Source: Pseudomonadota bacterium
GTDB taxonomy: Bacteria > Pseudomonadota > Gammaproteobacteria > UBA5335
Direction: 5' to 3'
Length of the DNA: 12,468 nucleotides
NCBI GenBank assembly: GCA_021783685.1
Contig: JAJXTQ010000023.1
Span: 1 to 12,468, forward strand
The stretch's first letter is position 1. Every line of letters starts with the position of its first letter. The notes below the pieces were generated by a model, which saw only the letters and a list, made by a program, of their open reading frames with translations, was not told the origin of the DNA and made no database searches. Positions 2,150-11,619 of this stretch are shown here, piece by piece. The translations under genes and the position numbers were made by a program.

Positions 2150-2262
2150 CGGAGATCCGGGCGCCGTCTGTTCTCAACGTGTTGATTCGTTGATGAAAAT
2201 TGGGCTGCCGGGCACCGGACGCTGATAGGGGTCACCGGCCGGCCAGATGCGGTCGCTCGAAG

Positions 2263-2664
2263 TCACGAAACCCCCTCTCCCGCGACGGCGGGAGAGGGCG
2301 GGGGTGAGGGCCGTCGCAAGAGCGATGTCGTGCGAATTTGCTCGAGCACGGCCGTGGTCTGCGTCAAGACATCGTTATTCCAGAATCGCATCACCACGAA
2401 GCCCCGCTTGCAAAGGAATGCATCCCGCGAAGCGTCGTAGCGGCATGCTTCCTGATGTTGTGAGCCGTCCACCTCGACGATGAGGTGTTGTTCCATGCAG
2501 ACGAAATCGACGATATAAGGACCGATCGGTTGCTGCCGACGGAACCTCCATCCCATGAGGCGACGCGATCGCAGTTCTTGCCAGAGGCGCCGTTCGGCGT
2601 AGGTGGATTTCGCGCGCAGCGAACGTGCCTTCAGCCATGAAGGCGTTCGGCTGGGTGTTTCCAT
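2263..2664 (-). CDS. DUF559 endonuclease-domain protein
   Basis: From ATG 2664 this gives 133 residues. A TTG at 2751 in the same frame would add 29 N-terminal residues of low-complexity basic sequence; I prefer the ATG because family members begin shortly before the conserved ARSLRAKSTYAERRLWQELR. Core motifs follow the family order: GWRFRRQQPIGPYIVDFVC (38-56), LIVEVDGSQH (61-70), YDASRDAFL (76-84), and GFVVMRFWNNDVL (88-100). The acidic residues D53, E64 and D66 with Q69/H70 match the PD-(D/E)xK-like nuclease fold related to very-short-patch repair (Vsr) endonucleases. Substrate and role of the family are not established. The last 15 residues or so (PSPPPSPAVAGEGVS) are encoded by the palindromic repeat, not by the domain. 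Identical inverted repeats bound the gene, suggesting a mobile cassette. It has no same-strand partner. Confidence 0.85.
   Translation of the reverse strand: METPSRTPSWLKARSLRAKSTYAERRLWQELRSRRLMGWRFRRQQPIGPYIVDFVCMEQHLIVEVDGSQHQEACRYDASRDAFLCKRGFVVMRFWNNDVLTQTTAVLEQIRTTSLLRRPSPPPSPAVAGEGVS
2269..2311 (+). repeat. left copy of a 43-bp palindromic (REP-like) repeat
   Basis: The element contains a palindromic core, CCCTCTCCCGC-GAC-GGCGGGAGAGGG, followed by a GGGGTGAGGG tail. It is identical over 43 bases, in inverted orientation, to 2754-2796. It overlaps the 3' end of the DUF559 gene. The shape (GC-rich hairpin plus a short conserved GTGAGGG flank) is that of REP-family elements, which occur in many scattered copies in proteobacterial genomes. 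Confidence 0.85.
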
Positions 2665-2753
2665 ACGGAATGGGGCACTGCGTCGGAGAGAGGTGCGAAG
2701 TTTGTGTTGCCGGGTGGTATGGGGCACTACCGTCGACAGCAGCAATGGCAACC

Positions 2754-2796
2754 GCCCTCACCCCCGCCCTCTCCCGCCGTCGCGGGAGAGGGGGTT
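2754..2796 (-). repeat. right copy of the 43-bp palindromic (REP-like) repeat, inverted
   Basis: This is the exact reverse complement of 2269-2311 over all 43 bases; identity stops immediately outside on both sides. Together the two copies enclose 442 bases holding only the DUF559 gene, with the upstream TTG of that frame (2751) directly abutting this copy. Confidence 0.85.
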
Positions 2797-3157
2797 GCAG
2801 TGCTTCGCGCCGAAGCAGTCCGGGGTGGCCCTCAGCGGCCGCTCAGGGTCGATTCGGAATTCTGGCCCATCGAATTTGAATGTCGGAAAGGGAATGCTGC
2901 ACGGCTCGCTCGCGAGTGCATTATGGAACCATTCGAGATGGATGACGACCGCCTCGCATTCGTGGTCCGCTTGTCGCGCCACCCTCTGGCGCTCGTCCCC
3001 ACGACGGGAACCGGGGAGGTCACCCCGGAAGCCGCTTGAACCCCTTATCCCGCCTGACACGCCCCCTTCAGAGGGGGGCGGATAGAACGTGCGTCGGATG
3101 CTGCGGCCGACCGTGGCGTACCGCGGACCGGCGTGGTGGAACCGGATGCGGGGCCGG
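2797..3157. other. intergenic stretch with hairpins and no clear gene
   Basis: Frames here are open on both strands but show no recognisable motif, no plausible ribosome-binding site and strongly arginine/serine-rich translations, so I call no gene. Two hairpins are present. CCGGGG/CCCCGG lies at 3011-3028. CGCCCCCT-TCAG with a GGGGGGCG arm lies at 3060-3080 and is listed separately. Confidence 0.5.
3060..3080 (-). terminator. C/G-rich hairpin downstream of the diguanylate cyclase gene
   Basis: The sequence CGCCCCCT-TCAG-AGGGGGGCG folds into a strong stem about 80 bases past the stop of the minus-strand diguanylate cyclase gene. No T tract follows on the minus strand, so it is at best a rho-independent-like pause or 3' end-protecting hairpin. 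It may instead be another dispersed palindromic repeat. Confidence 0.3.
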
Positions 3158-10136: not shown

Positions 10137-11546
10137 GTGGTGCACGATCTCGATCCCGGAATTTTCAAGGCGTATGACATCCGGGGAGTCGTCGACCGCA
10201 ATCTCACACGCGATGCGGTGCAGGCCATCGGCGCCGCGCTGGGAACCGAAGCCCGCGAGCGCGGCGTGCGCGAGATCGCCGTCGGGCGCGACGGCCGGCT
10301 CTCGGGGCCGATGCTGCGCGATGCCCTGATCGCCGGCATCCGCAGCGCCGGGGTGGACGCCGTCGACATCGGTCTGGCCGCGACGCCCACGCTGTACTTC
10401 GCAACCTATCATTTGAACACCGGTTCGGGCGTGGCGATCACCGGCAGCCACAATCCTCCCGAGTACAACGGCCTGAAGATCGTGCTCGCCGGCGAGGCGA
10501 TGTACGGGGAGGGCCTGCAGCGGCTCCATCGGCGCATCGTCGAAGGCCGGCTCCACGTCGCGGAGCGGCCGGGTGCGCTGCGCAGCGCCGACGTGCGGCA
10601 GGCCTACCTCGATCGCATCGTCGGCGACGTGCGCCTGGCGCGGCCGATGCGCGTGGTGATCGATTGCGGCAACGGCGTTGCCGGGGCGGCGGCGCCGCAG
10701 CTCTACAAGGCGCTGGGCTGCGAACTTACGGAGCTCTTCTGCGAGGTCGACGGCCGCTTTCCCAATCACCATCCGGATCCGGCGCACCCGGAAAACCTGC
10801 GCGACCTCATCGCCACCGTGCAGCGGACCGGGGCTGAACTGGGCCTCGCGTTCGACGGTGACGGCGACCGGCTGGGGGTCGTGACCCGCGGCGGCCGGAT
10901 CATCTGGCCCGATCGCCAGCTCATGCTCTTCGCCAAGGACGTGCTGGCGCACAAGCCCGGCGCGGAAGTGGTGTTCGACGTCAAATGCACGCGGCTGCTC
11001 GCGCCCTGGGTGCGGCAGCACGGCGGACGCCCGACGATGTGGCGCACGGGCCATTCCGTCATCAAGGCGCGGCTGCGCGAGAGCGGCGCAGCGCTCGCCG
11101 GCGAGATGAGCGGCCATACCTTCTTCAACGACCGCTGGTACGGGTTCGACGACGGCATGTACGCCGGGGCGCGCCTGCTGGAAATCCTGAGCCGCGAAGC
11201 CGATCCCTCGGCGGTGCTGGAAGCGCTGCCGGATGCGCCGAACACGCCCGAGTTGCAGTTGCGTACCGCGGAAGGGGAGAATTTCGCCGTGGTCGACGCG
11301 TTGCGGGCGGTGGCGCAGGATGGCGCGCGGGCGCGGGAGGTCTTCGCCGGCGCGGTCGAATTCATCACCATCGACGGCTTGCGGGTCGAGTACGCCGACG
11401 GGTTCGGCCTCGCGCGCCCGTCGAACACCACGCCGGTCGTGGTGCTGCGCTTCGAGGCCGATGGCCCCGCGGCGCTGGCGCGGATCCAGGACGATTTCCG
11501 GCGGGCGCTGCGGGCGGTGAAGCCCGATGCGGCGTTGCCGTTTTGA
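10137..11546 (+). CDS. algC: phosphomannomutase/phosphoglucomutase (AlgC type)
   Basis: This 469-residue cytosolic alpha-D-phosphohexomutase moves phosphate between C6 and C1 of mannose or glucose, supplying glucose-1-P to GalU and glycogen synthesis and mannose-1-P to GDP-mannose. Start: tandem GTG GTG at 10137 and 10140, with AGGAG 5 or 8 bases upstream; either could be used. Motifs: FKAYDIRGVV (10-19), GRDGRLSGP (50-58), the phosphoserine loop TGSHNPPEYNG (Ser 104), the Mg2+ loop DGDGDR (240-245), the sugar-specificity loop GEMSGH (322-327) and the phosphate-binding RPSNTTP (427-433). The length and the order of conserved blocks (NHHPDP, DVKCTR, GFDDGMY, ending VLRFEAD) closely match Pseudomonas AlgC as I remember it. 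It is divergent from pgi and precedes glgB by 73 bases, likely an operon. Confidence 0.96.
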   Translation: MVHDLDPGIFKAYDIRGVVDRNLTRDAVQAIGAALGTEARERGVREIAVGRDGRLSGPMLRDALIAGIRSAGVDAVDIGLAATPTLYFATYHLNTGSGVAITGSHNPPEYNGLKIVLAGEAMYGEGLQRLHRRIVEGRLHVAERPGALRSADVRQAYLDRIVGDVRLARPMRVVIDCGNGVAGAAAPQLYKALGCELTELFCEVDGRFPNHHPDPAHPENLRDLIATVQRTGAELGLAFDGDGDRLGVVTRGGRIIWPDRQLMLFAKDVLAHKPGAEVVFDVKCTRLLAPWVRQHGGRPTMWRTGHSVIKARLRESGAALAGEMSGHTFFNDRWYGFDDGMYAGARLLEILSREADPSAVLEALPDAPNTPELQLRTAEGENFAVVDALRAVAQDGARAREVFAGAVEFITIDGLRVEYADGFGLARPSNTTPVVVLRFEADGPAALARIQDDFRRALRAVKPDAALPF

Positions 11547-11567: not shown

Positions 11568-11606
11568 TCGCGCTCCGCTTGCGCGAGAGGGCCGGGGTGA
11601 GGGGGG
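11568..11606 (+). repeat. diverged third copy of the REP-like repeat, upstream of glgB
   Basis: Bases 11581-11603 match the right half of the 2269-2311 repeat at 21 of 23 positions (GAGAGGG, then GGGGTGAGGG). The hairpin here is TCGCGC-TCCGCTT-GCGCGA. It occupies the algC-glgB gap, and its GAGGGGGG tail (11599-11606) is the only purine-rich stretch before the glgB ATG, 13 bases away. Confidence 0.65.
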
Positions 11607-11619
11607 TCACACAAAACCG

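Follow-up and report, generated by a model that had tools for sequence, protein, structure and literature searches.

A DUF559 nuclease gene between inverted triplex-motif palindromes and the recurrent pairing of such nucleases with these repeats across bacterial phyla

The window analysed here is a stretch of 12,468 nucleotides from a gammaproteobacterium of the UBA5335 lineage (contig JAJXTQ010000023.1 of assembly GCA_021783685.1), in which a single DUF559 nuclease gene lies between two inverted copies of a palindromic repeat. The features of this cassette include:

2269..2796, whole inverted-repeat unit of 528 bp, delimited by pairwise alignment of the arms
2263..2751, minus strand, DUF559 (PF04480) gene, a 162-aa ORF with a TTG start at 2751
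2269..2311, plus strand, downstream arm on the 3' side of the gene, 43 nt, palindrome head plus tail toward the gene
2754..2796, minus strand, upstream arm on the 5' side of the gene, the same 43 nt inverted, tail toward the gene
2273..2298, strand-less, palindrome head CCCTCTCCC-GCGACGGC-GGGAGAGGG, by repeat detection and DNA folding
2767..2792, strand-less, inverted copy of the palindrome head, by repeat detection and DNA folding
2300..2310, plus strand, tail GGGGGTGAGGG, near mirror of the purine arm (triplex third strand), by sequence, mirror-tail test and covariation
2755..2765, minus strand, tail of the upstream arm, by sequence and mirror-tail test
2240..2268, outer segment common to other copies, ending CTGGCCG in the direction of the gene, by copy comparison
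2797..2852, probable 5'-side outer segment, diverged in the window copy and of uncertain end, read by eye against L217-L219 and L230-L232

The two arms are identical at 43 of 43 nt in inverted orientation, and each consists of a hairpin, then C, then GGGGGTGAGGG, with both tails pointing inward. As DNA, the segment 2269-2298 forms a stable hairpin (-14.8 kcal/mol, z -5.1, equalled by 0 of 200 shuffles). A chance origin of the arms is excluded, since an inverted-repeat score of at least 30 is reached at 2 of 1280 control positions in related loci, while 43 identical bases would score 43. The ORF starts 3 nt in from the inner end of the upstream arm, and its frame spans the entire downstream arm to a stop codon 3 nt past it; thus, the last residues of the protein (...PSPPPSPAVAGEGVS) are encoded by the arm. 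DUF559 is the sole gene between the arms, and no transposase is found inside the unit. The 43-bp inverted identity and the 528-bp unit described in a first-pass annotation are borne out by alignment of 2269-2311 with 2754-2796, as is its statement that the unit holds a DUF559 gene alone (one ORF, PF04480, E 3.3e-41).

The predicted protein matches PF04480 over residues 41-141 with 140 bits (cut-off 20.6), and its model adopts, among the folds listed by VIA-align, the PD-(D/E)XK fold of the homing endonuclease I-Bth0305I and of Vsr. I-Bth0305I (PDB 3r3p), which has a Vsr-type catalytic domain, shares this fold at an identity of 20%; by contrast, no intron or intein is recognised in the window unit and no separate DNA-binding domain is seen in the 162-aa protein. 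Conserved acidic residues of the window protein include D82, E93 and D95. According to passages of PMC12907096, the Caulobacter DUF559 protein VsrA is a nuclease of the repair type with a link to a methyltransferase. The partial match to DpdF (E 9e-4) is the only one returned by PADLOC. Proline-rich C-termini are recurrent, with at least four prolines in the last 45 residues of 74 of 131 DUF559 frames, in agreement with the PSPPPSPAxAGEG-like tails that the annotation had ascribed to other DUF559 proteins. In many relatives, as in the window, the downstream motif is translated as the C-terminal end of the protein. The dN/dS of the window copy versus L217 is 0.45, on 12 synonymous and 16 nonsynonymous changes; values for other copy pairs were set aside because these contain upstream frame that does not align or, with L227, a copy that carries a frameshift.

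The window arms belong to the BoxC/PIT/triplex-motif (TM) class of repeats. In the mirror-tail test both comprise a pyrimidine arm, a loop, a complementary purine arm and a mirror-image purine tail, a three-block layout that is the same as that of the E. coli motif in passages of PMC4666352. Among hairpins near DUF559 genes the tail covaries with the arm: its match to its own arm averages 7.22 of 9 versus 6.52 of 9 for the arms of other loci, and the own mirrored arm beats the mean of the others in 200 of 254 hairpins, which are partly non-independent. The same passages of PMC4666352 report that: (i) BoxC/PIT/TM repeats have been known from E. coli since the 1990s, (ii) the G/C-rich TM is present in more than 260 genomes, (iii) an E. 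coli TM sequence forms an intrastrand triplex in vitro, (iv) E. coli TM loci show more rearrangement, the repeats being tied to genome instability, (v) PIT elements lack promoter or terminator activity, and (vi) transposase or integrase remnants were never found near TMs. The motif is described there as intergenic with no mobile gene attached, whereas here a nuclease partner is proposed; DUF, ycjD, Vsr and endonuclease are not mentioned in the main text of that paper. Among the matches listed from open-licence papers, none pairs a DUF559 nuclease with the BoxC/TM motif, and no open-licence paper was found that names DUF559 together with 'inverted repeat'.

TMs are frequently paired as doublets whose tails face inward, at a spacing of about 30 bp (e.g., G363 C4, G292 C9 and G176 C39), a REPIN-like arrangement that resembles the cassette minus its gene. 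Elsewhere in the window, a partial TM at 11581-11611, 84-89% like parts of the arm, lies just past a long plus-strand ORF ending at 11546, with no full hairpin partner noticed alongside. A C/G-rich hairpin without a mirror tail (3059-3081) stands between the cassette and the end of the next minus-strand gene.

The flanks of DUF559 genes were compared at 136 domains in 133 loci, which are phylogenetically non-independent and derive from relatives, a one-genome-per-GTDB-species set (the best 80 of at least 516 confirmed relatives) and the class of the window (loci for 30 of its matches). With a fixed 300-bp domain core, a hairpin sought within 250 bp and at least 250 bp of flank, 124 of 136 domains were usable, and 1240 control positions were drawn from the same loci. 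A pyrimidine/purine hairpin is found on either side in 119/124 DUF559 cases versus 108/1240 controls and on both sides in 99/124 versus 14/1240, so that flanking by palindromes far above other positions, which the annotation had put forward as a check, is upheld. Full TMs follow suit, at 100/124 versus 57/1240 for either side and 73/124 versus 8/1240 for both. Both tails point toward the gene in 63 of the 73 two-sided full-TM cases, the other 10 having another orientation. By source, hairpins on either and on both sides occur at 17/20 and 15/20 of relatives, 74/75 and 60/75 of named species, and 28/29 and 24/29 of the Pfam-chosen loci of the class. The alignment that found the 80 named loci (A1) was built after palindromes had been seen at many members; without A1 members, the counts are 108/113 for either side and 88/113 for both.

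Inverted-repeat scoring of 128 domains, 8 of 136 being dropped for short flank, gives a score of at least 18 in 74/128 cases versus 11/1280 controls, and the match is mostly confined to palindrome plus tail. Direct repeats between the flanks are also enriched (43/128 versus 6/1280 at score 18), partly because palindromic heads match both ways. Arms fit their own partners, with 48/125 at a score of at least 25 versus 7/1000 for arms of other cassettes. The inverted palindrome match is seen in Proteobacteria, Chloroflexota, Desulfobacterota, Nitrospirae, Methylomirabilota, FCPU426 and Planctomycetota and is weaker in Aminicenantes, while inverted matches score 9 at most at the Dadabacteria locus L131 and the deltaproteobacterial loci L071 and L124. 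Full TMs are found at none of the seven helicase-size frames (L036-L042) among the 60 Pfam-chosen loci; these seven fall below the A1-profile threshold and were tallied separately. Related palindromes lie close to the DUF559 loci of N. gonorrhoeae and Sinorhizobium. Of the inward-tailed TM pairs, too few of which were listed for a count, one (G419 C13 63445/63816) contains a DUF559 match and another, with a gap of 1.4 kb (G225 C1 1305209/1306690), has none inside. A relative is also present in 39 plasmid and 2 phage collection records, several of the 'plasmid' records being chromosome-sized. A recurrent pairing of nuclease and palindrome, with a prevailing polarity and across phyla, is thus established.

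The abundance of TMs in whole genomes was surveyed in 369 genomes of the class using a strict TM pattern, whose backward control is zero in the listed rows, together with DUF559 matches at E up to 1e-15 and Y1_Tnp matches at E up to 1e-10. At least 10 TMs are present in 30/78 genomes with DUF559 versus 12/291 without, and in 32/185 genomes with Y1_Tnp versus 10/184 without; among genomes that lack a Y1 match, the figures are 7/30 with DUF559 versus 3/154 without. In 38 mixed families, compiled by hand from the survey tables, TMs are more numerous in the DUF559 genomes in 24, fewer in 6 and equal in 8 (Wilcoxon p 2.7e-4), and the cassette itself contributes only about two TMs to such a count. 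Solo motifs and inverted doublets are scattered in DUF559 genomes and also in some without the gene. DUF559 is absent at E 1e-15 from 12 of 42 genomes with at least 10 TMs, and the strict TM, a pattern that misses variant motifs, is absent from 25 of 78 DUF559 genomes. Individual TM-rich genomes with no DUF559 match at E 1e-15 include G333 (62 TMs), G107 (44) and G153 (47).

The REP/RAYT system likewise has one gene between inverted palindromes, with the same palindromes found solo and as doublets elsewhere. Its enzyme is a Y1 HUH transposase, whereas here a PD-(D/E)XK nuclease is the only gene in the unit. The repeats also differ: REP has GT(A/G)G at the foot of the palindrome, while the window arms have AACC outside the head and a purine tail inside. 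When the same flank test was applied to the 30 best-scoring RAYT-type Y1_Tnp loci (5 dropped, 25 usable), a full TM was found near 0/25 and any hairpin near 4/25, so that the RAYT genes of this set lack TMs. The first-pass annotation had noted that no RAYT gene is present, which is correct for the unit; the genome of the window does have 3 Y1_Tnp matches. Its suggestion of a non-RAYT counterpart to the REP/transposase pairing fits both the RAYT loci and the ability of DUF559 to predict palindrome abundance in genomes without a Y1 match.

Further copies are found in the genome of the window (G000, 146 contigs) and in a congener (G001, one contig). In G000, contigs C53, C67 and C44 each end in a gene-3' part and C64 has one close to its end, while gene-5' parts terminate C40, C82, C70 and C30; C53 plus C40 form the window copy. 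As the halves of the unit sit at contig ends, the assembly seems to be interrupted by about four copies. In G001, three copies are complete, with 93.5-94.8% identity to the window copy, and another has an internal 222-bp deletion. Two of the G001 copies, separated by 1.3 Mb, share 99.7% identity across 592 bp. One of their sites matches G000 on both flanks (with a ~900-bp difference in one of these) and the other on a single flank, which points to gene conversion between old sites. Part of the similarity between G000 and G001 units is therefore descent plus conversion. The annotation had identity ending sharply outside the repeats; this holds for arm versus arm, but the G000 and G001 copies have a further ~43-45 bp in common past each arm. 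The true unit is thus about 600 bp, from about 2240 to ~2852, its upstream outer limit in the window copy being read by eye where that end has diverged. Inverted matches longer than the palindrome are also found at L127, L144, L151 and L160. Two candidates were rejected as evidence of insertion: the flanks of L217, a supposed empty site, map to two places in G000 and reflect a rearrangement, and a 65-bp difference between L224 and L225 is unrelated intergenic sequence.

Presence and absence of the unit at syntenic sites were compared in another genus, that of G225, in which 41 genomes were searched. Site A (L250) is represented by 20 loci in 19 of the 40 other genomes. The unit is present in G437, G455 and G449 as in G225, and in G463 contigs break at the site, one of them at a TM. 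One tail-less palindrome head stands alone in G450 and in G445, and a decayed one in G459. In the remaining 12, both flanks are conserved and a full TM is absent from the fetched stretch, with a tail-less chance hairpin in L300. A tree of the flanks places G450 beside G463 (bootstrap 97), the branches of G445, G437, G455 and G441 being weakly supported; because G450 pairs with the contig-broken G463, its solo head suggests a loss more than a target. At site B (L247), the unit is present in G225 between two full TMs in the same direction (i.e., not inverted), while 14 loci were fetched, of which 10 have both flanks and a full TM in 0/10, the other 4 being without the right flank. Four paralogous units of G225 are strongly diverged, which argues against a recent burst. 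The unit thus comes and goes at syntenic sites. Terminal repeats are present in the unit, no target duplication is recognised by eye at sites A and B, and no precise recent insertion with a defined target was caught among the sites compared. The proposal of a mobile cassette is accordingly sustained in that copies have moved on an evolutionary scale, but not for a fresh insertion with a clean target; likewise, the empty sites sought in relatives exist as unit-less sites A and B, but precise insertion is not seen. Recombination hotspots of Legionella include a transposase/DUF559 segment in passages of PMC12308824, a hint that DUF559 loci recombine.

Ten long DUF559-bearing frames were scanned for other families. 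In L045, L047 and L032, DUF559 separates the catalytic part of methionyl-tRNA synthetase (MetRS) from the part that binds tRNA. These in-frame MetRS units, with palindromes, come from three genomes, all of the window's family. In L025, DUF559 is beside split glutamine-amidotransferase matches of asparagine synthase (AsnB), and in the Rickettsiales locus L108 (3612-7991) a DUF559 unit lies within the Mfd frame. DUF559 is also found in methylase and DUF1156 frames (L153 and L105) and ahead of a RecF/SMC-type domain in L119, which may be read-through; the long frames of L113 and L129 have no family besides DUF559. Rickettsia palindromic elements similarly place palindromic DNA in frame in unrelated protein genes, according to passages of PMC10969869, but are ~150 bp and without a nuclease. 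The Mfd-borne unit of L108 may be linked to these Rickettsia elements. We know of no mobiliser of the Rickettsia elements.

The window cassette is probably (at roughly 0.6) one copy of a widespread, autonomous, non-RAYT element made of palindrome and nuclease. Such an element would consist of one PD-(D/E)XK nuclease gene of the Vsr/homing fold and two inverted TMs whose heads face out and whose tails face in. Counting against it are the failure to catch an insertion with a defined target, the loss-like solo head of G450, the diverged paralogues of G225, the share of descent plus conversion in G000 and G001, the TM-rich genomes that lack DUF559 and the DUF559 genomes that lack a strict TM, the units of another orientation, the enriched direct repeats and the repair-type role of VsrA. 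Action of the nuclease on the TM is the simplest reading and a favoured one. The nuclease may recognise a TM extruded as a hairpin or triplex (e.g., at replication forks) and nick or cut there. The break would then be repaired from another copy, guided by the common palindrome, and repair would copy the unit into the broken motif or convert copies in the style of a homing endonuclease. Most solo heads would then mark losses, in which the palindromic cores recombined or slipped, and the doublets would be derivatives without the gene that are served in trans. Judged from anatomy, fold and distribution, the odds that the nuclease drives the spread of the unit are about even. The broader proposal is evenly balanced too: DUF559 may be the missing enzyme of BoxC/PIT/TM, forming a new class of selfish element whose solitary nuclease recognises and cuts a triplex-forming hairpin and homes into such motifs. 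It would leave behind solo motifs and doublets devoid of the gene, and at times settle in frame within essential genes. With such a partner, a common family of unknown function would gain a candidate role, the RAYT/REP way of life would have a second solution of unrelated chemistry, and palindromic DNA that settles in frame in essential proteins would have a model.

Of the alternatives, one takes the nuclease for a structure-specific enzyme of repair or control, which retains TMs beside its gene as binding sites for autoregulation or as a sink for the protein, while TMs spread by slippage or recombination and the gene is passive. This is unlikely; it does not alone explain in-frame units in MetRS, AsnB and Mfd, and it sits poorly with multicopy units that have common outer ends and with the two-sided polarity (63/73). 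It is less probable still that the unit is MITE-like cargo moved by some other transposase through recognition of the outer ~45-bp segments, DUF559 being a passenger. The outer segments common to G000/G001 copies and the longer inverted matches at L127, L144, L151 and L160 would suit this, while the confinement of the inverted match to palindrome plus tail in most loci and the lack of any other gene in the window unit argue against it. Over-long REPINs, in which the palindromes would be moved by RAYT (Y1 HUH) transposases with DUF559 carried along as cargo, are very improbable. Inverted REPs do flank RAYT genes in passages of PMC2817692, TM doublets are REPIN-like, Y1_Tnp is present in the genome of the window, and TM abundance is somewhat higher in Y1-positive genomes (32/185 versus 10/184); against this, full TMs are absent near the 25 usable RAYT loci, the DUF559 association stands without Y1 matches (7/30 versus 3/154), and the TM tail is GGGTGAGGG after the hairpin rather than a REP-type GT(A/G)G head. 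GC-rich bidirectional terminators that flank a small gene by chance deserve scarcely any weight, for while hairpins could terminate transcription and 100 such palindromes of Enterobacter sp. 638 are so read in passages of PMC2869309, the flank counts (73/124 versus 8/1240) speak against this as a full explanation, as do the polarity of two-sided placement, the covarying mirror tail, the 0/25 at RAYT loci, the in-frame units and the inactivity of PIT elements as promoters or terminators in passages of PMC4666352.

The proposed gene partner of these repeats has a relative in E. coli K-12, ycjD, which makes the spread and instability of BoxC/TM directly testable. The DUF559 gene of E. coli is ycjD, in the order sapF-ycjD-fabI, and in 3362 of 5426 genomes at least 80% of the query region is covered at one place. 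BoxC was, we presume, first described beside fabI. In L244, a TM lies ~167 bp downstream of ycjD and the downstream motif adjoining the gene is decayed; in L245, a TM whose tail points inward directly adjoins the end of a gene marked as incomplete. YcjD and N. gonorrhoeae NGO0050 (PDB 3hrl) are DUF559 relatives of the window protein, but ycjD differs in that no TM was found upstream of it at L244 and L245; no function assigned to YcjD or NGO0050 was found in the parts of the literature covered. As a clean empty site, ycjD was rejected: four ycjD-minus strains carry efflux genes in that interval, identified in passages of PMC12817139 as the eefRABCD operon, so that ycjD-plus and ycjD-minus states differ by a large replacement. 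Between sapF and fabI, ycjD replaces the eefRABCD of other phylogroups and adjoins TM motifs (L244, L245). In the window, two small plus-strand ORFs (1455-2130) adjoin the cassette; by sequence impression they may be toxin-antitoxin-like, and the homologue of this pair in G001 sits elsewhere (C1:989002).
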